From a virus: a stretch of DNA of 48,295 nucleotides. The translations under genes and the position numbers were made by a program. Of this stretch, positions 18,084 through 40,400 are shown in pieces; positions within the stretch are counted from its first letter, which is position 1, and each line of letters starts with the position of its first letter. Under the pieces are notes generated by a model. The model ran no database searches. It saw only the letters and a program-made list of their open reading frames with translations, and had not been told where the DNA came from. The stretch covers positions 1 through 48,295 of IMG/VR virus record IMGVR_UViG_3300047666_000595. One strand, given 5' to 3'.

Positions 18084-18911
18084 ATGAAAATTAAAAAGAC
18101 AATAGACGGCGTTGATTTTGAAAGCGTTACAAAAAAGTATATGTGTATAGTGCCAGTTAGCGGCGGGAAAGACTCGCAAGCATGTCTTAAAATGGCTATA
18201 GAAGAATTTGGATCAGATAATGTTTTAGGTTTTTTCTGTGACACTAAATTTGAACACCCAAAAACGTATGTTCACGTTAAATACATGTCCAAACTTTACG
18301 GTGTAAGAATAATTGCCGCAAACAGTGGTGAAGTTTTACAGCAAAGCAGTAAAAACAAAAGGTTCCCGGGCGGCGGCGCAAGGTTCTGCACTGATCATTT
18401 GAAGATAAGACCAACTAGAATCTTTCTAAAATATTACTCTGAAATGTTTGGCGGTGTTCAAGTATGGTACGGAATGAGAACGGACGAAAGCTCAGAACGC
18501 TCAAAACGTTACGAATTTAAAGACCCTGACGAACTTTATCAACCACACGAAGTCATTGGAAACTACCCCAAATACTTAGGTAAAAACGGAGTCAGATATC
18601 GTTTACCAATTGTTGATTGGTACGTTAATGAAGTTATGGAATATTTAGATGGAGAGCATAACCCTCTTTATAACTCATACCTTGATGATGACGGAATCAT
18701 GCAGCCTGGATTTACTAGGGTTGGTTGTTTCCCTTGTTTAGCTGGTGGTGACAAGGCAAAAGTAAAAGCTTTTGAATATGATAAATTTGGCGCGCAACAA
18801 TTAATCAATGTTAGAGTTGTTGAAAACGAAATAAATAAAAGCGTCTTTACTGCAAAAATAGGGCAAGCCTGGGATGATGATAATCAAGGCTGCCGAATTT
18901 GTGAGATCTAA
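18084..18911 (+). CDS. PP-loop ATPase, PAPS-reductase / DndC-like, 275 aa
   Basis: Member of the adenine-nucleotide alpha-hydrolase superfamily. The SGGKDS ATP-pyrophosphatase loop is at residues 26-31, and the GMRTDESSERS motif near 130-140 is typical of PAPS-reductase-like proteins. Cysteines are at 102 (FCTDHLK), 215 and 218 (GCFPC), and 270 and 273 (GCRIC), which could bind an iron-sulphur cluster. The fold fits CysH, phage PAPS reductases or the sulphur-transfer protein DndC. The window has no other dnd gene, so a phosphorothioation system is not supported. It is the last gene of cassette 2, on the plus strand, converging with the MuF gene (the ends overlap by four bases). Confidence 0.8.
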   Translation: MKIKKTIDGVDFESVTKKYMCIVPVSGGKDSQACLKMAIEEFGSDNVLGFFCDTKFEHPKTYVHVKYMSKLYGVRIIAANSGEVLQQSSKNKRFPGGGARFCTDHLKIRPTRIFLKYYSEMFGGVQVWYGMRTDESSERSKRYEFKDPDELYQPHEVIGNYPKYLGKNGVRYRLPIVDWYVNEVMEYLDGEHNPLYNSYLDDDGIMQPGFTRVGCFPCLAGGDKAKVKAFEYDKFGAQQLINVRVVENEINKSVFTAKIGQAWDDDNQGCRICEI

Positions 18912-25908: not shown

Positions 25909-26538
25909 ATGTTAGAACTAAATGATTTTGAAACGTTGGCACTTGCTCAAGCTTACGAGTTTACCAATGATAAAAAACGCATTGGTTCGGGCCAGGCCAG
26001 AGGCTATTTAATCCGAAACGGTTTATGGTCAATTCTAAGAACTATGCAAGCCGATTTAAATAACCCTCTTTCATCTCTTGCGGACGGGACCATCATTACC
26101 GCTTCAGATGCTAATAGTCATTTTGGATTAGACCCAAGCAAAGCGGACGGAATTGGTAACCTCCAAAGTGTTGGCGTTTTCGTTTCTGAAGGCGTATTTA
26201 CGCAAGAGCAAGCGGATAAGTTTTTAAACCTGGCGATATCAATTGAAAATGTTTACGCAAACAAAACATTATTAGATTTTAAAATTGCTAAAGGGACTAT
26301 TGAACGGGTTAAAGTAACTAAAGACTTTGAGCGGGGCGAATGCGTCATCATAACCACGGCAGATTGTGAGGCTCATACGCCTCAAATATACGAACGTGTA
26401 CGGCGTGCAAACGGTAAAATCGAAGATATCCGAATAGCTGGGTTTAGAACTGTTGAAAAAGAAGGCACCTACCGCACCCATTGCCGTGATGTTAATAATT
26501 TATGGATAGATAACGCCTATGGCGTGATAACTGCCTAA
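25909..26538 (+). CDS. Tail-module protein of unknown function, 209 aa
   Basis: Soluble, with an N-terminal helical region and a C-terminal part containing TTADCEAHTPQIYERVRRANG. Its TAA overlaps the ATG of the lectin-like repeat protein, so the two are translationally coupled and probably interact. A promoter may be present with TATGAT at about 25870, with low certainty. Confidence 0.55.
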   Translation: MLELNDFETLALAQAYEFTNDKKRIGSGQARGYLIRNGLWSILRTMQADLNNPLSSLADGTIITASDANSHFGLDPSKADGIGNLQSVGVFVSEGVFTQEQADKFLNLAISIENVYANKTLLDFKIAKGTIERVKVTKDFERGECVIITTADCEAHTPQIYERVRRANGKIEDIRIAGFRTVEKEGTYRTHCRDVNNLWIDNAYGVITA

Positions 26539-27917
26539 TGGCTTATCTTCTAAGGTTTCCGGGTGTCACTCAATATGTAGCGCTTTCGAGCATGACTGGT
26601 GGCGCTTTTGCTGACCGAAATGATACCAATCAAAACTGGAGCTTAGAATTTGAATTTGCGCGGTCGGGTGCGAACACGTACGTTCACCGCCTTTTTTCGT
26701 CAACAATTCGTAATGACGAATTGTTATTTAGAGCTAGTGACGGTTTATTTAGGCTGCAAGGGTTAGCAGGGAGCGCCAGCTGGTCAGGAGTTACCATATC
26801 GACATCACGCTCTGTTTACAGGATTGAGCGTATAGTCGGAACTACAAATTATGAATTATTTGTAGACGGCGTTAGCGAAGGCATACAATCCGCATCCGTA
26901 ACAATATTTAATTTTGACATTATCGGCAAAAAAGGCTCCGGCGGTTATGTAAACGGTGATTTATATTACGTAGATTATAGCACCTCAAATTCTGGCGCTA
27001 GTTTGTATTTAGACCCATCCGCCACCAGTGGAACAGGAACAACATTAGAAGATACCGCAGGAACTAACGACGGCACATTAACTGACTTCACAGGTACAAC
27101 CAACAGCTGGTGGGTATCTTATGGCGGCGCAACTTACTCAATAACTTTAGCCGCTGGCAGCTACGCCTATACCGGCAATGATTTATCATTAAAGGCAGAT
27201 AGAAAATTATCGTTTGATGCAGGATCTTACAATTACGCAGGTAATGCCAAAGATTTGTTGGTGGGCAGAAAGTTAGCCTTTGACGCTGGTAGTTACTCAT
27301 ACGTGGGCAATGATGTTGATCTAAAAGCAAATAGAAAGTTAACTTTTGACGCTGGCTCGTATTTATATACGGGGAATGATGTAAATTTATCAGCAAATAG
27401 AAAGTTAAGTTTTGACGCCGGATCTTACATATATTCAGGCAGCGACTTAAACACAAAAGCAGATAGAAAGTTGTTATTTCAAGCTGGTGCATATGCATAT
27501 ACAGGCCAGCCATTAACGCTAACCTACACCCCAACAGGCGGCGCAACTTATACAATAACTCTTGACGCTGGATCTTATTCTTACGTAGGAAATGATATAG
27601 TTTTAGCCGCAAATAGAGCGATACTATTAGAAGCGGGTGATTACAATTATACAGGTCAGCCGGTCATACTTGCAGCAAACAGAAAGCTAAGCTTTGACCC
27701 AGGTAGTTATGCGCTAACGGGCAACGACGTTTTATTGTTGGCTGAACGTAAAATGTCACTGGATGCTGGTGTTTATAACTATGTCGGCAACCCAATGTCG
27801 CTGGTTTTCTCAGGTCAAACCGTTACTTTAATCGACGATTATAGTGTATCTTATGCAGATGATTACATCAGAGCAGCATATGCAGATGATGACATAACAG
27901 CAATTTATTTAAACTAA
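26538..27917 (+). CDS. Lectin-like (LamG/concanavalin) protein with 22-residue repeats, 459 aa
   Basis: Residues 1-190 look like a concanavalin-type jelly roll of phage adhesion proteins (TNQNWSLEFEF, FRLQGLAGSASW, YYVDYST). Residues 199-427 contain about ten copies of a 22-residue unit of type KLSFDAGSYNYAGND-x-x-L-x-A-x-R, each with an AGSY and a GND/GQP turn. The last 30 residues are an acidic tail (DDYSVSYADDYIRAAYADDD). Such proteins bind surface glycans. The repeats differ in synonymous codons, so they are old and not recently copied. Confidence 0.72.
   Translation: MAYLLRFPGVTQYVALSSMTGGAFADRNDTNQNWSLEFEFARSGANTYVHRLFSSTIRNDELLFRASDGLFRLQGLAGSASWSGVTISTSRSVYRIERIVGTTNYELFVDGVSEGIQSASVTIFNFDIIGKKGSGGYVNGDLYYVDYSTSNSGASLYLDPSATSGTGTTLEDTAGTNDGTLTDFTGTTNSWWVSYGGATYSITLAAGSYAYTGNDLSLKADRKLSFDAGSYNYAGNAKDLLVGRKLAFDAGSYSYVGNDVDLKANRKLTFDAGSYLYTGNDVNLSANRKLSFDAGSYIYSGSDLNTKADRKLLFQAGAYAYTGQPLTLTYTPTGGATYTITLDAGSYSYVGNDIVLAANRAILLEAGDYNYTGQPVILAANRKLSFDPGSYALTGNDVLLLAERKMSLDAGVYNYVGNPMSLVFSGQTVTLIDDYSVSYADDYIRAAYADDDITAIYLN
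27131..27810 (+). repeat. Tandem 66-bp coding repeats (22-residue units)
   Basis: About ten imperfect units inside the lectin-like gene. The FDAGSY part is written with different codons in consecutive units, for example TTTGATGCAGGATCTTAC and TTTGACGCTGGTAGTTAC. Two units carry insertions (a YTPTGGATYTITLD-type segment near 27520-27560). Confidence 0.85.
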
Positions 27918-35613: not shown

Positions 35614-36753
35614 CTAATACTGAATTGAAATATTACGAACTTCCCGACGACCAATGGCGCGGATAACGGTTTTAGCATCTGCCTCGTTAATGCCAGCGGC
35701 AATCAAATCAACCAGAGCAGCGCGGTTAATCTTAATCTTATTATCCTTATCCGCTTCGCGGTCTTTAGCGGCTTGCGCTGCTTCTGCTTCTTCATCAGCT
35801 TGGCGCTTAACTTCTTCAAGCCTTGCTTTTTCCACAGCTTTTTCTTGAAGTTTTAGCAAGGCAACACGATTATTTTCAAGGTCAATTTTGTGCTGCTCGG
35901 CGGCTTTGGCTTGATCTTGCTTTGCCTGTTCAGCGTCTTGTTTTGCTTTTTGCTCTGCAAACTTTGCATTTTCTTCACGTTGACGAGACTCAGCAGCTCG
36001 GCGATCAACATCTTCACGGTCACTTTGTGCCTTTGCTTCTGCCAGTCGCGTTGCTTCTTTTGCTGCGGCCTCTGCGATCACACGGCTTTTTTCTGCTTGT
36101 TCGGATGCCGCTTGTTTTAGTCGCAGCTCTTCAAGCTCTGCCTCTCGCTGCTCAGCCTGCTCAACACGCTCAAGGGTAACCGTTGCAGTGGTCAATGCTG
36201 ATTCATGAGCAACTTTGAATTTCTTTTTAAGTTCGGGCCATACAAATTCATCAGAATAGCCGTTAATCGTATTGATTATATTGCCAAGAATTACAGCAGT
36301 TACATTAGGAGATGAACAATCGAAGGGCACGCTGGTCAACCAATTAATAATTTCATCTTGTCCAGCCTGTGCATCAGTCAGCGGCTTTAAAATATCCGCT
36401 TTAAGCTCATCAAATCTCGCCTTGCTTTCACGGGCATTTTTTTCTAGTAATTTAGGTTGGGTTTTTAACACCCGCAAATAATCACGGATAGGCGTATCTA
36501 ATGCCGCATTACTAGCAGCCACTTTTTTAGCATTGTCTTTGATATTCTTGCGGCCTTCAACGGTATTCACGTCGGGCACTTCTGCGCGGGCTTCCTTGCT
36601 AGCGTCGTTAAACATCTTTTTAAGCGATTCTTCGGTGAATGTGTGCGGTATTGAGGGTAGGTTAGTTTTACCTAACCCCTGATCGCTTTCGGTGCCTTCA
36701 GTTGCTTGTTGCGCCAATTTAACTTCTGTGCTGATTGCTGTAGTTGTTGTCAT
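35614..36753 (-). CDS. Long coiled-coil protein of the recombination operon, 379 aa
   Basis: Residues 195-330 are an uninterrupted Ala/Glu/Lys/Gln coiled coil, which often earns a false TolA label. The C-terminal 45 residues form a compact domain (LVDLIAAGINEADAKTVIRAIG ending in ISIQY), common in phage proteins encoded with RecE/RecT-type genes. The likely role is structural or accessory to recombination or replication. The function is not established. Confidence 0.6.
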   Translation of the reverse strand: MTTTTAISTEVKLAQQATEGTESDQGLGKTNLPSIPHTFTEESLKKMFNDASKEARAEVPDVNTVEGRKNIKDNAKKVAASNAALDTPIRDYLRVLKTQPKLLEKNARESKARFDELKADILKPLTDAQAGQDEIINWLTSVPFDCSSPNVTAVILGNIINTINGYSDEFVWPELKKKFKVAHESALTTATVTLERVEQAEQREAELEELRLKQAASEQAEKSRVIAEAAAKEATRLAEAKAQSDREDVDRRAAESRQREENAKFAEQKAKQDAEQAKQDQAKAAEQHKIDLENNRVALLKLQEKAVEKARLEEVKRQADEEAEAAQAAKDREADKDNKIKINRAALVDLIAAGINEADAKTVIRAIGRREVRNISIQY

Positions 36754-36770: not shown

Positions 36771-37205
36771 TTAATATTGGTTAACTGATTCCATATGGTC
36801 TAAATTTGACGAACCTTCGACCGTAATTCTCACTTGATTGCCATGTGGGGCTATCCACTTGTTTTTTACTAAATGCTTTAATAAATGCCTTGTAGCGCTA
36901 ACCTTTCGGTTTTTTGTGCTGTCTGCAAGATTTTTAAAGCAGCTTCTTTTTTCCACAACTTGCATCACTGATGAAATGTAGGCAAAGCCCAATTTATCTT
37001 GGGAACCCAATCTTGTCAGTGTTTTTAAAAAAGCTTTTGAAGATTTAAATATAAAACCCTCCTCGTGCTTTTCGTAGTCATACATAACAAGAAATGATTT
37101 AAGCATTAAAACTAAGTCATTTCTTTTGCAAGGCATACTATGTACGCCATCAATCAACCTAGAAATATATTCTTCTTGAGCTGTGTTTAGTTCTGGTAAA
37201 TTCAT
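36771..37205 (-). CDS. Unknown protein, 144 aa, possible winged helix
   Basis: Helical, with a basic C-terminal half (STKNRKVSATRHLLKHLVKNKWIAPHGNQVRITVEG) whose helix-helix-strand order resembles a winged helix. It lies beside the iteron region, so it is a candidate origin-binding protein. This is inference. Confidence 0.5.
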   Translation of the reverse strand: MNLPELNTAQEEYISRLIDGVHSMPCKRNDLVLMLKSFLVMYDYEKHEEGFIFKSSKAFLKTLTRLGSQDKLGFAYISSVMQVVEKRSCFKNLADSTKNRKVSATRHLLKHLVKNKWIAPHGNQVRITVEGSSNLDHMESVNQY

Positions 37206-37676
37206 GATTGATCCTCTTGATTTGTTTTACACATATTATACGTATTTATATTGTATGCAAGTAATTTGCTTATTATTTTTAATATAGGAAATTTCTTATT
37301 ATTTCTTATCGTATAGGAAGTGATATAGGAAATGAGTAAAGGCGGGTAAGTGACTGTATAATATAGAGTATATATATATATATATATATATTATACCTAC
37401 ATTTACACCATTTCCTACGTTCTAGCCCTTCCCTTTGCGCTTTATACTATTTACTGCTTATAGGTGAATAATAGATGACATACTCTTTACGACTATGCAG
37501 AATTTTAGGAAATGTAAGAAATCACTGTTAAGTGTCTGTTTTGTATAAGGAACAAATAGGAAATCGTTTCTTGTAGGTGGGAAATTTCCTATGGGCTTGT
37601 TGATTTATAGCAAAAAACAAAAAAGCCTAAATTTTTACAGAAAGGCTTTGCATTGTTTTAATATTGGTGATACGTG
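37206..37676. other. Non-coding AT-rich region with iterons; origin candidate
   Basis: No gene is visible in these 471 bases. They hold about seven copies of TAGGAAAT or its close forms in both orientations (about 37286, 37315, 37327, 37410, 37506, 37556 and 37582), a palindrome GGAAATTTCC at 37580-37589, and a (TA) run of about 25 bases at 37369-37392. It is flanked by the primase-helicase gene and a possible DNA-binding gene. A terminator lies at the right end. Confidence 0.7.
37622..37649 (-). terminator. Terminator after the primase-helicase gene
   Basis: AAAGCCT / AGGCTTT stem with a 14-base loop, then T-rich sequence on the minus strand, 28 bases after the stop at 37677. Confidence 0.75.
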
Positions 37677-40400
37677 TTATTTGTTTAGCTTTACTTTTTG
37701 ACCGTCAACCTTAATTTTTCCCTCGCCAGCTAACGATGCAATCGAATTTTCAAATGCGTCTTGGCTATGTTGAAGAAGATCCTTGGCTATGTCCTGGTAA
37801 TACTTTTGACGTTTCAAAAATTCTTTAAGCTTGGATTTGTAGCGCCATCCATCATCCTTGTCGCGTTTGTTAACGGTTAAACGTTTTATAATAGCCTCTT
37901 TTATACCCTCCAGTTTTGATTCAATGGTATCACCTTCAACGGCTTCATTTATTTTAAGATTGCTTTCTAAATGTTTGATTGAATTAAGAGCCACCAGCAA
38001 GGCATATTTAACGTGTTGTGCCTCAACCGTTACATTGCCATCAATTACATTATAAAGCGCCAGAGAGCTTGCCACGCTCATCACACGTTCAGACATTCGA
38101 GCATACAAAGCGCCAAGCCTTACATGGTTTAAATATTCGTGTTGATCATAGTGCTTGGCAATATTAAAAAACATCAGGCTGGCTTCAGGTGTTGCGTGTG
38201 TTCGACGATCAACACCATTAAATGCAGCCGTTATGCCTTCGGCGCGTTCATCGTTAGACATTTGGACAATCATTCCGACTTCTGCTTTAAGTCGCTCAAA
38301 CAGTACCTTATCGTCTTTGGATTCGTAGCCAGTTGTCGCCCACTGATCATGGCTAACCTGCAAACTTTCGTTTTGCACCCGCTCAACGCCACAATCAAAG
38401 ATAAGGGACCGACCGAGAAAGCCCGATTCTATGCTGTCCTCGTCAATTATCATGGCTAATTTTTGTGGTGTGGATAATGCCGCAAGATTTAAAGCCGGAT
38501 TACGAATGCCGTTTTCAATGGAATAAGCAACGCGCTCGAGCTCTTTTATTTTTTCTTTAATCTGCAAAATTTCGTAGTCAATAACTTTTATTTTTTCTTT
38601 TTCTAAATCAACGTTAAAGCCAAGTCTAATATCCTCTTTGGCTATCACCATTTTATCAAGTCGCATTCGCCTGGTTGCCAAGCTGCCTTCGAATTCTTCA
38701 GCGTGCAATTTTGACAAAATATACAATGATGATGTGGCTATTTCCATAAGCGTTGCCGGTATTTTTGACGTGTTTTTATCTTTGCCGCCAAGCGAATCAC
38801 CAAGCAAGGTATGGGCTTCATCTTTAATGTAAAAGCATCGTCCGTCGTCATACGCTGCAGCGCGAATGACGTCTTTATCTGATCGGATATCACCGTAAAC
38901 ATGAATACCACATTCACCAAGTAGACTTTTAGACACCGCCTGGGCTCGGTCTTTACCCGATGCAGAGACGCCGAGAGTAATAGTAATTAAACTTAATTTG
39001 CTGTTACGAAAACCACTTAAACCACTGCCAGCCATAGCCATGCATTGTATGGCCATGGCAGAAAACGCGCCGCCTTCAAGCTTACGATGCGCGCCAGCTT
39101 TCATGTAGTGCACTATCTCACCCGCTAGGCCTGGAGGAGAATCAACCTCGACATCATCAAGATTGATTCCTTCGGGTAAACAGTTAATGCCTTCAAGTTT
39201 TTTAGGTTTTGGCTTTTCACTGTTGCCCATCCATGATCCAAACGCTGGGGGCACCTGCTGTGGTGGTGCCTGCTGAACTGGTGCGGGTTTCGGCTCTGGT
39301 GTTTTTGTTTCTGGTGTTGGCTCCGGCTCTGGCTTTGGCTTAACACCAATAGCAGCACGTAAGGCAATTTTACATTGATCATCACCGTGGATTTGTCGGT
39401 AGTCGTCCCAATCGCCAAGCTCTGGCGGGAGTGCAACTTTAGCACCAAAAGGATCAGCGGCTTTGTTAGCATAATACTCACCTGGTCGCCTATCGTGCTT
39501 TATGTCTAACTTATCATGATCACCAAATACAATAATATTAGACTCAGGGTGATCTTTTTTTGCTTGTTTAACAGCGGCTTCAAGATTGGCTGCATTAAAT
39601 GCCACATACGTTTTAAATTTGGTTAATGTGTTAATAGTGACGCCGGTGGCATAGCCTTCAACTATACCAATATTTTTTGTAGGGTCACCAATAACATGGT
39701 TGACGCCGGTCATATCACCACCGGTAACTGGGCGCTTAATTCCATCCTTGGTGATTTTCTGCACGTTAACCAGCTTTTTATTTTTATAAACCGGAACTAA
39801 TAATAATTCGCCTTTTTCAATAATTCCGTCTTTGCCATAAATAGATTGTCCGTTAACCAGATACTTACCAGGCAAACCCTTTTTAGACATATACTCATGG
39901 TCACCGGTTACAGCAGATTCCACCAGCAGCGCAGCGCCTTTTTTTGCTTGTGCAATATTGACGGCTCTTTCTGCATCGTGATCAACAATGTGGACACGTT
40001 TTTTAGGAATAGTTTTTAATTTGACATCACCGATTAATTCTTTGGCGGTATCCATAACAGACTTGCCGATGTATCGAGACAACAATAATAAACCACCGCC
40101 GCTGTTTGGTTCACACTGAGAACAAAACCAAGTCCCGCGACCGTTTTTATCGTCAAACCTAAAGCGGTCTTTACCACCGCAAACGGGGCAAGCTCCATGC
40201 TTTCGGCCTGATGGCAATTCACAACCGTAATTATTGAGCACTGTTTGCCATTGACCGTGGAATTGATCGTGCGCTTTGTCAACTGGTGATGGTTCATTAC
40301 TGTTTGAATATTTGCGTTCACCGCTATGGCATTCACAACCAGGGTCATTTAGTGATTTTCTGGTTGTGTGTCCGCATGATAAAAGTAGAGGAAATTTCAT
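37677..40400 (-). CDS. Primase-helicase, 907 aa
   Basis: Bifunctional replication protein. Residues 65-100 hold a zinc ribbon (CPVC 71-74; CSQC 93-96, after KDRFRFDD). The Toprim primase domain covers about 240-340, with GIVEGY (Glu248) and FGDHD (Asp294, Asp296). A Pro-rich linker lies at 353-395. The C-terminal ATPase-like domain has a P-loop GVSASGKD at 477-484, with Asp in place of Ser/Thr, and a Walker B-like FYIKDEAH at 523-530. The arrangement resembles P4 alpha and large phage primases. The ATG at 40400 precedes MKFPLLLSCGH. It is a very likely replication initiator or helicase loader at the adjacent iteron region. Confidence 0.87.
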   Translation of the reverse strand: MKFPLLLSCGHTTRKSLNDPGCECHSGERKYSNSNEPSPVDKAHDQFHGQWQTVLNNYGCELPSGRKHGACPVCGGKDRFRFDDKNGRGTWFCSQCEPNSGGGLLLLSRYIGKSVMDTAKELIGDVKLKTIPKKRVHIVDHDAERAVNIAQAKKGAALLVESAVTGDHEYMSKKGLPGKYLVNGQSIYGKDGIIEKGELLLVPVYKNKKLVNVQKITKDGIKRPVTGGDMTGVNHVIGDPTKNIGIVEGYATGVTINTLTKFKTYVAFNAANLEAAVKQAKKDHPESNIIVFGDHDKLDIKHDRRPGEYYANKAADPFGAKVALPPELGDWDDYRQIHGDDQCKIALRAAIGVKPKPEPEPTPETKTPEPKPAPVQQAPPQQVPPAFGSWMGNSEKPKPKKLEGINCLPEGINLDDVEVDSPPGLAGEIVHYMKAGAHRKLEGGAFSAMAIQCMAMAGSGLSGFRNSKLSLITITLGVSASGKDRAQAVSKSLLGECGIHVYGDIRSDKDVIRAAAYDDGRCFYIKDEAHTLLGDSLGGKDKNTSKIPATLMEIATSSLYILSKLHAEEFEGSLATRRMRLDKMVIAKEDIRLGFNVDLEKEKIKVIDYEILQIKEKIKELERVAYSIENGIRNPALNLAALSTPQKLAMIIDEDSIESGFLGRSLIFDCGVERVQNESLQVSHDQWATTGYESKDDKVLFERLKAEVGMIVQMSNDERAEGITAAFNGVDRRTHATPEASLMFFNIAKHYDQHEYLNHVRLGALYARMSERVMSVASSLALYNVIDGNVTVEAQHVKYALLVALNSIKHLESNLKINEAVEGDTIESKLEGIKEAIIKRLTVNKRDKDDGWRYKSKLKEFLKRQKYYQDIAKDLLQHSQDAFENSIASLAGEGKIKVDGQKVKLNK

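Follow-up and report, generated by a model that had tools for sequence, protein, structure and literature searches.

A candidate replication origin downstream of a phage primase-helicase gene, exchanged together with a small winged-helix gene

The locus and its gene neighbourhood

The window analysed here, the whole 48,295-nucleotide stretch of IMG/VR virus record IMGVR_UViG_3300047666_000595, comes from a marine tailed phage and carries major genes of the contractile-tailed type. A non-coding gap of 471 bp (37206–37676), with a GC content of 0.29 vs. 0.41 for the window, extends from the stop codon of a 907-aa primase-helicase gene (37677–40400, minus strand) to the start of a 144-aa gene (36771–37205, minus strand). 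On the minus strand, the primase-helicase gene is followed in turn by the gap, the 144-aa gene, a conserved 379-aa gene (phrog_1376; 35614–36753, minus strand), exonuclease VIII, RecT, and terminase; beyond the opposite end of the primase gene lie a 103-aa gene and, in divergent orientation, an SSB-like gene and a helicase gene. The initial annotation placed the site next to the primase-helicase, and the two do adjoin; more exactly, the gap is 3′ of the primase-helicase stop codon and upstream of the 144-aa gene, all three being on the minus strand. Its description as the only gene-free stretch above 300 bases holds for open reading frames of at least 40 codons, at which threshold no other stretch of at least 200 bp in the whole window is free, but with a threshold of 60 codons positions 1096–1545 (450 bp) are likewise free. 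Elsewhere in the window, a match to phage phosphoadenosine phosphosulfate reductase (18084–18911, plus strand) represents an auxiliary metabolic gene amid the head genes.

Both ends of the gap carry presumed expression signals, read from the sequence. Behind the primase gene, a minus-strand stem-loop with a T run (AAAGCCT...AGGCTTTTTT; 37619–37649) is a likely terminator; it was absent from the list produced by a terminator scan, and the gap end containing it can still be aligned to Shewanella phage 1/41 (77.5% over 71 bp). At the opposite end, the 144-aa gene is preceded by a presumed minus-strand promoter with a ribosome-binding stretch (37206–37260), which includes TATAAT at 37235–37240 and GAGG before the ATG; a consensus scan made no promoter call there. 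An RNA gene was also considered for the gap and rejected: two weak miRNA matches, far under gathering scores, were all that was found, and they are explained by a TA run.

The primase-helicase has a zinc ribbon, a Toprim domain, a Walker-A-like motif (GVSASGKD), and a helical C-terminal domain that ends in a winged-helix-like strand pair in a model of low confidence (mean pLDDT 58.7), too uncertain for a fold search. The 144-aa protein (phrog_31721, of unknown function) was modelled confidently by AlphaFold2 (mean pLDDT 87.7), and its residues 43–144 match winged-helix proteins, mainly the MarR, PadR, and CggR regulators, with Z scores of 8.3–9.3. These scores are middling, no initiator family stood out among the fold matches, and Foldseek alone gave nothing below an E value of 0.001 for the model. 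At the sequence level, there was no Pfam family at 0.001 and no PDB match, nor any match to MarR or PadR, with which the protein has only the winged-helix fold in common. No plasmid relative was found, and a scan of viral contigs with the 144-aa protein as sole query returned no matches. As modelled, the matches point to a DNA-binding fold and to no specific function.

Repeated boxes around an AT-rich core

The cluster of boxes in both orientations, the palindrome, and the TA run that were noted at the outset are all present. Six exact copies of TAGGAAAT lie in the gap, at 37285–37292, 37326–37333, 37506–37513, and 37557–37564 on the plus strand and at 37410–37417 and 37584–37591 on the minus strand, around a TA run of 23 bases. 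Relatives with one mismatch include TAGGAAGT (37314–37321, plus strand) and TGGGAAAT at 37578. The palindrome GGAAATTTCC (37580–37589), which forms a double box overlapping the minus-strand copy at 37584–37591, occurs once in the window, and a similar GGAAATTTCC was found in the gap of the relative L026. In 2,000 dinucleotide shuffles of the gap, TAGGAAAT was present on average 0.04 times and at most twice, vs. the six copies observed, and a single further copy occurs in the 48.3 kb, at 27586 on the plus strand. The box is thus both repeated beyond chance and nearly confined to the site, as in iteron origins. The outlying copy falls within a 459-aa open reading frame without a PHROG match (26538–27917, plus strand).

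Between the boxes lies an AT-rich core (37345–37407), an imperfect inverted repeat of GTAAATGTAGGTATAATATA and TATATTATACAGTCACTTAC in minus-strand sense (80% complementary), with the TA run (37369–37391) at its centre. The AT-richest 50-mer (0.88) coincides with this core, a position corresponding to the melting tract of iteron origins. When folded as single-stranded DNA and compared with shuffled sequences, the core of the window is marginal (z −1.9; 9 of 200 shuffles folded equally well); at the same place, z was −3.1 in Shewanella phage 1/41, −4.9 in the relative L005, and −3.4 in Vibrio phage 1.100, and no hairpin was evident in the Vibrio type represented by 1.175. The element is most safely described as an AT-rich core in which an inverted repeat is often present.

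Two other types of origin signal gave little. The gap contains one exact DnaA box, at 37225, which is not kept in relatives, and no IHF site; with neither enriched, an origin of the DnaA/IHF type was rejected. A skew minimum had been predicted at about 37.4 kb, while the cumulative GC-skew minimum of the whole window is at 40.2 kb, where gene orientation switches. After correction for orientation, third-position skew gave the gap a small gain of 1.7–2.1 dLL units with the same sign in three genomes, but better positions exist elsewhere in all three, and GC skew was not retained as support for an origin.

Recurrence of the gap in related phages

Searches with the primase by tblastn found Shewanella phage 1/41 (75.7% identity), Vibrio phages (54–57%), and Aeromonas phage 62AhydR11PP, Erwinia phage Gungnir39, and Serratia phage Eta (42–47%), as well as further viral contigs. 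An AT-rich gap of about 470–650 bp follows the primase gene in about 25 relatives among the Shewanella, Vibrio, Aeromonas, Erwinia, and Serratia phages, beside primases 42–77% identical, so that the position next to replication genes is kept, as in iteron origins. In nearly all relatives, the gap opens with a terminator-like stem-loop after the primase gene. A gene related to that of the 144-aa protein follows the gap in Shewanella phages, many Vibrio phages, and some contigs, sometimes after a gene of 76–81 aa. Three examples of such an intervening gene (76–78 aa; L007:3556–3786, L010:6345–6581, and L030:7862–8095), which is absent from the window, share the C-terminal pattern F.TK...G..W..R. 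A phosphatase gene is inserted before the gap in Aeromonas phage 62AhydR11PP. In L028, several inserted open reading frames separate the primase gene by about 3.7 kb from the gap, its core, and the beginning of a 144-aa gene that is clearly related to its counterpart in phage 1.100; the gap therefore belongs to the 144-aa gene and not to the end of the primase gene. Phage T1 was rejected as a homologous case, since nothing like this gap follows its primase and Orf 26 genes.

The boxes of the relatives were identified from k-mer counts compared with shuffles, which in the window itself recovered TAGGAAA(T) six times. Enriched boxes are specific to lineages and include GGAAAT, CCCGGAAA, TGAGACA/TGAGTTT, and GGATAA. 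There are three copies of GGAAAT in Shewanella phage 1/41 and four in L005 (three to seven across gaps), six of CCCGGAA in L026, and about six each of TGAGACA and TGAGTTT in the group of 1.086, 1.191, and L030; the strongest boxes are the GGATAA of Eta, Gungnir39, L047, and L035, with 11–14 copies. The Vibrio types 1.175 and 1.100 have no significantly repeated box by this count. Most boxes of the relatives lie on both sides of the core and hardly any within it, with all three GGAAAT copies of 1/41 on its left. The suggestion that the boxes are conserved in relatives consequently fails for exact TAGGAAAT, which is abundant in the window alone while degenerate copies, GGAAAT or GGGAAAT, occur in the Shewanella relatives, but stands for the arrangement, several lineages having boxes of their own around an AT-rich core. 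Across lineages, the arrangement thus persists, unlike the box sequence.

Some features are peculiar to single lineages. The GGATAA boxes of Gungnir39, Eta, L047, and L035 resemble half a DnaA box, and the TA-rich tract of the same four relatives (Gungnir39 and Eta being L013 and L014) comes right after G-rich runs, GGGTGGGGGGGG in Gungnir39 being one example. Despite these boxes, no homologue of the 144-aa protein is detectable in this lineage. In L032 (7460–7580), a 12-base unit containing ACCTACGAA is repeated in tandem about ten times, immediately before the terminator-like stem-loop downstream of the primase gene.

Exchange of the gap together with the 144-aa gene

Pairs of Vibrio phages whose helicase C-termini are 97–100% identical allow the limits of the exchanged segment to be drawn: homology ends at the primase stop and returns at the end of the 144-aa gene. 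The same boundaries are seen in five pairs (1.175/1.100, L003/1.087, 1.246/L006, 1.225/1.201, and PS15B-5/1.175), which are homologous up to the primase stop codon (+0 to +6) and regain homology 16–35 bp before the 379-aa gene, just ahead of its start codon. Between these boundaries, the only DNA in common is a core of 66–97 bp with 78–82% identity, located at +334 to +468. Phages 1.175 and 1.100, for example, match at 95.8% identity as far as the final base of the primase gene and at 99.5% starting with the end of the 144-aa gene; in between, a 90-bp AT-rich core alone can be aligned (80%), and the 144-aa proteins are 29% identical. Likewise, among 40 pairs with helicases more than 90% identical, gap identity tracks that of the 144-aa protein (rho 0.57, p 1e-4) and not that of the helicase or the 379-aa protein, being 64–72% where the 144-aa proteins are at most 37% identical and 74–97% where they are at least 67% identical. 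A larger exchange, including the helicase half of the primase-helicase, is found in 1.086 and 1.191 (L009 and L015), in which the N-terminal half is 97% identical to that of other Vibrio phages and the remainder 43–57%; the switch point of these mosaic proteins lies in a proline-rich linker.

The gap and the 144-aa gene therefore move as a single cassette, while the core type and the primase-helicase are unchanged. The exchange supports a reading of the flanks by the 144-aa protein and falls short of proof, because adjacent segments can be co-inherited without a functional link and independent exchanges are few. It is unlikely that the helicase reads the flanks, since C-termini that are 97–100% identical adjoin unrelated flanks, while it may read the core, which is kept at a near-constant distance (+334 to +468) from the primase stop. 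Vibrio phage 1.158 (MG592526; L020, L186) is 99% identical to phage 1.175, but of the gap its record keeps exactly 88 bp of core, and the 144-aa gene is missing from it together with portions of several further genes. It was not used as a natural deletion mutant or minimal origin, as its other deletions fall where relatives diverge and the record is probably a mixed-strain assembly.

A candidate origin and its alternatives

The gap is a well-supported candidate for a replication origin, and we consider that it probably is one. This is the best explanation because a gap with an AT-rich core recurs at the same position in about 25 phages, with boxes particular to each lineage, and moves with the gene for the winged-helix 144-aa protein. 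The initial proposal of an origin is partly supported, in these respects and not in the exact conservation of the boxes or the place of the skew minimum. Several observations count against an origin: GC skew does not point to the gap, the Eta lineage has boxes without a 144-aa homologue, 1.175 and 1.100 are without repeated boxes, and the fold of the window's own core reaches only z −1.9.

The AT-rich, partly self-complementary core would be the site of unwinding and of loading of the conserved primase-helicase encoded just upstream, and the short flanking boxes would be bound by the winged-helix protein encoded just downstream. With protein bound to either flank, the core would be bent or strained and so let in the primase-helicase, and sites close to the right end may also allow the 144-aa protein to control its own promoter. 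The 144-aa protein, first suggested as the initiator, is more likely to recognise the boxes, with the primase-helicase acting at the core; we infer that it is the probable box-binding partner. The gap and the 144-aa gene would then constitute a specificity cassette swapped as a unit between phages. The fuller picture, of a two-layer origin in which an AT-rich core serves the conserved primase-helicase and exchangeable boxes are read by a co-exchanged winged-helix protein, so that phages with the same enzyme fall into different origin-specificity groups, is put forward tentatively and may well not hold in full.

The main rival is that the gap is a control region alone. The boxes would be operators at which the 144-aa protein controls the operon it belongs to (the 144-aa, 379-aa, exonuclease VIII, RecT, and terminase genes), and the AT-rich core would be a promoter element or a transcription boundary. 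The gap is immediately upstream of the 144-aa gene, the fold is nearest to those of transcription regulators (MarR, PadR, and CggR), and a repressor and its operator would be co-exchanged too. However, the boxes flank the core over a span of 300 bp, reach as far as 387 bp ahead of the 144-aa start codon, and are absent from the genome's other promoters; the gap and the 144-aa gene stand beside the primase-helicase in nearly all relatives; and the 66–97-bp core persists between unrelated flanks at a near-constant distance, which an operator model does not predict. As the sole function of the gap this seems rather unlikely, and an autoregulated operator may be partly true alongside an origin.

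A second possibility, which we judge unlikely, is that the boxes are read in the manner of P4 or the SaPIs by the C-terminal domain of the primase-helicase, the 144-aa protein being unrelated or accessory. The origins of SaPI and SCCmec lie directly downstream of a helicase gene and are read by the helicase C-terminus (PMC7581432), the low-confidence model of the present C-terminus shows helices and a strand pair, Eta, Gungnir39, L047, and L035 have boxes with no 144-aa homologue, and between 1.086 and 1.201 the helicase half was exchanged along with the gap. A domain that is 97–100% identical beside unrelated gaps cannot, however, distinguish the cassettes, although it may yet recognise the core common to them. 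A packaging, partition, or attachment site in place of an origin is highly improbable: such sites are also marked by inverted repeats and repeated boxes, and the PS15B.3 and Gungnir39 records begin or end within the gap, but the terminase genes are 5–7 kb away, no ParA-like or integrase match occurred among about 30 window proteins scanned, and the 53-bp end overlap of PS15B.3 looks like an assembler overlap.

If the gap is an origin, the cultured Vibrio phage pairs with nearly the same primase-helicase and different cassettes make its specificity directly testable. Origin specificity might also play a role in competition between co-infecting phages, a possibility that the cassette boundaries make testable.

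Relation to known origins

The replication module of the window consists of primase and helicase genes in opposite directions, exonuclease VIII, and RecT, with no polymerase found; a limited literature search found no report of a mapped origin for phages with such a module. The authors of a recent reannotation of phage TLS, which is T1-like, state that they found no iterons in it (PMC11447400).

Several known systems resemble the locus in part. In SaPI and SCCmec, the origin is directly downstream of the initiator helicase gene, and the helicase C-terminus binds its repeats (PMC7581432). The repeat-containing site is likewise directly downstream of the helicase gene here, with the exception of L028 (about 3.7 kb), but unlike the origins of SaPI Rep and SCCmec Cch2, the gap swaps with a downstream winged-helix gene beside a helicase C-terminus that is 97–100% identical, and a change of box type with the helicase C-terminus, as expected for SaPI, SCCmec, and P4, was not seen, identical or nearly identical C-termini adjoining unrelated gaps. 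In P4, the winged helix of the alpha protein binds the origin repeats (PMC4234260). The systems share a Toprim primase, a helicase, and a winged helix acting at repeats, but no sequence relation to a solved structure was detected, and the window encodes a separate box-binding candidate. In the crenarchaeal plasmid pRN1, the origin is a stem-loop that follows the primase-helicase gene and its terminator, an arrangement also proposed for phage BIP-1 (PMC4234260). The candidate site here is similarly downstream of a primase-helicase gene and past a likely terminator. In contrast, the pRN1 primase is archaeo-eukaryotic and its origin is without iterons, whereas boxes flank the core here; the corresponding stem-loop feature is marginal in the window (z −1.9), stronger in 1/41, L005, and 1.100 (−3.1 to −4.9), and not evident in 1.175.

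Lambdoid phages exchange O together with its iterons. In their origins, iterons bound by O accompany an AT-rich tract (PMC7466680), and repeated boxes by an AT-rich tract are found beside replication genes here as well. The lambda origin is inside the initiator gene, whereas this site is intergenic with boxes on both sides of the core, and a separate 144-aa protein and primase-helicase stand in place of O and P. The Vibrio satellite PLE has a non-coding iteron origin with a dedicated initiator, RepA, and uses phage machinery (PMC7145576); it resembles the locus in its non-coding iteron-type site and dedicated candidate initiator, but RepA belongs to the RepA_N family, while the 144-aa family has no sequence match to any solved structure.

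Judged by sequence features, the locus would work most like the SaPI/SCCmec, pRN1, P4, and lambdoid origins, whose defining features it appears to share as far as these are testable. It differs from them in its arrangement of flanks and core and in that the flanks are swapped along with a distinct gene for a small winged-helix protein.
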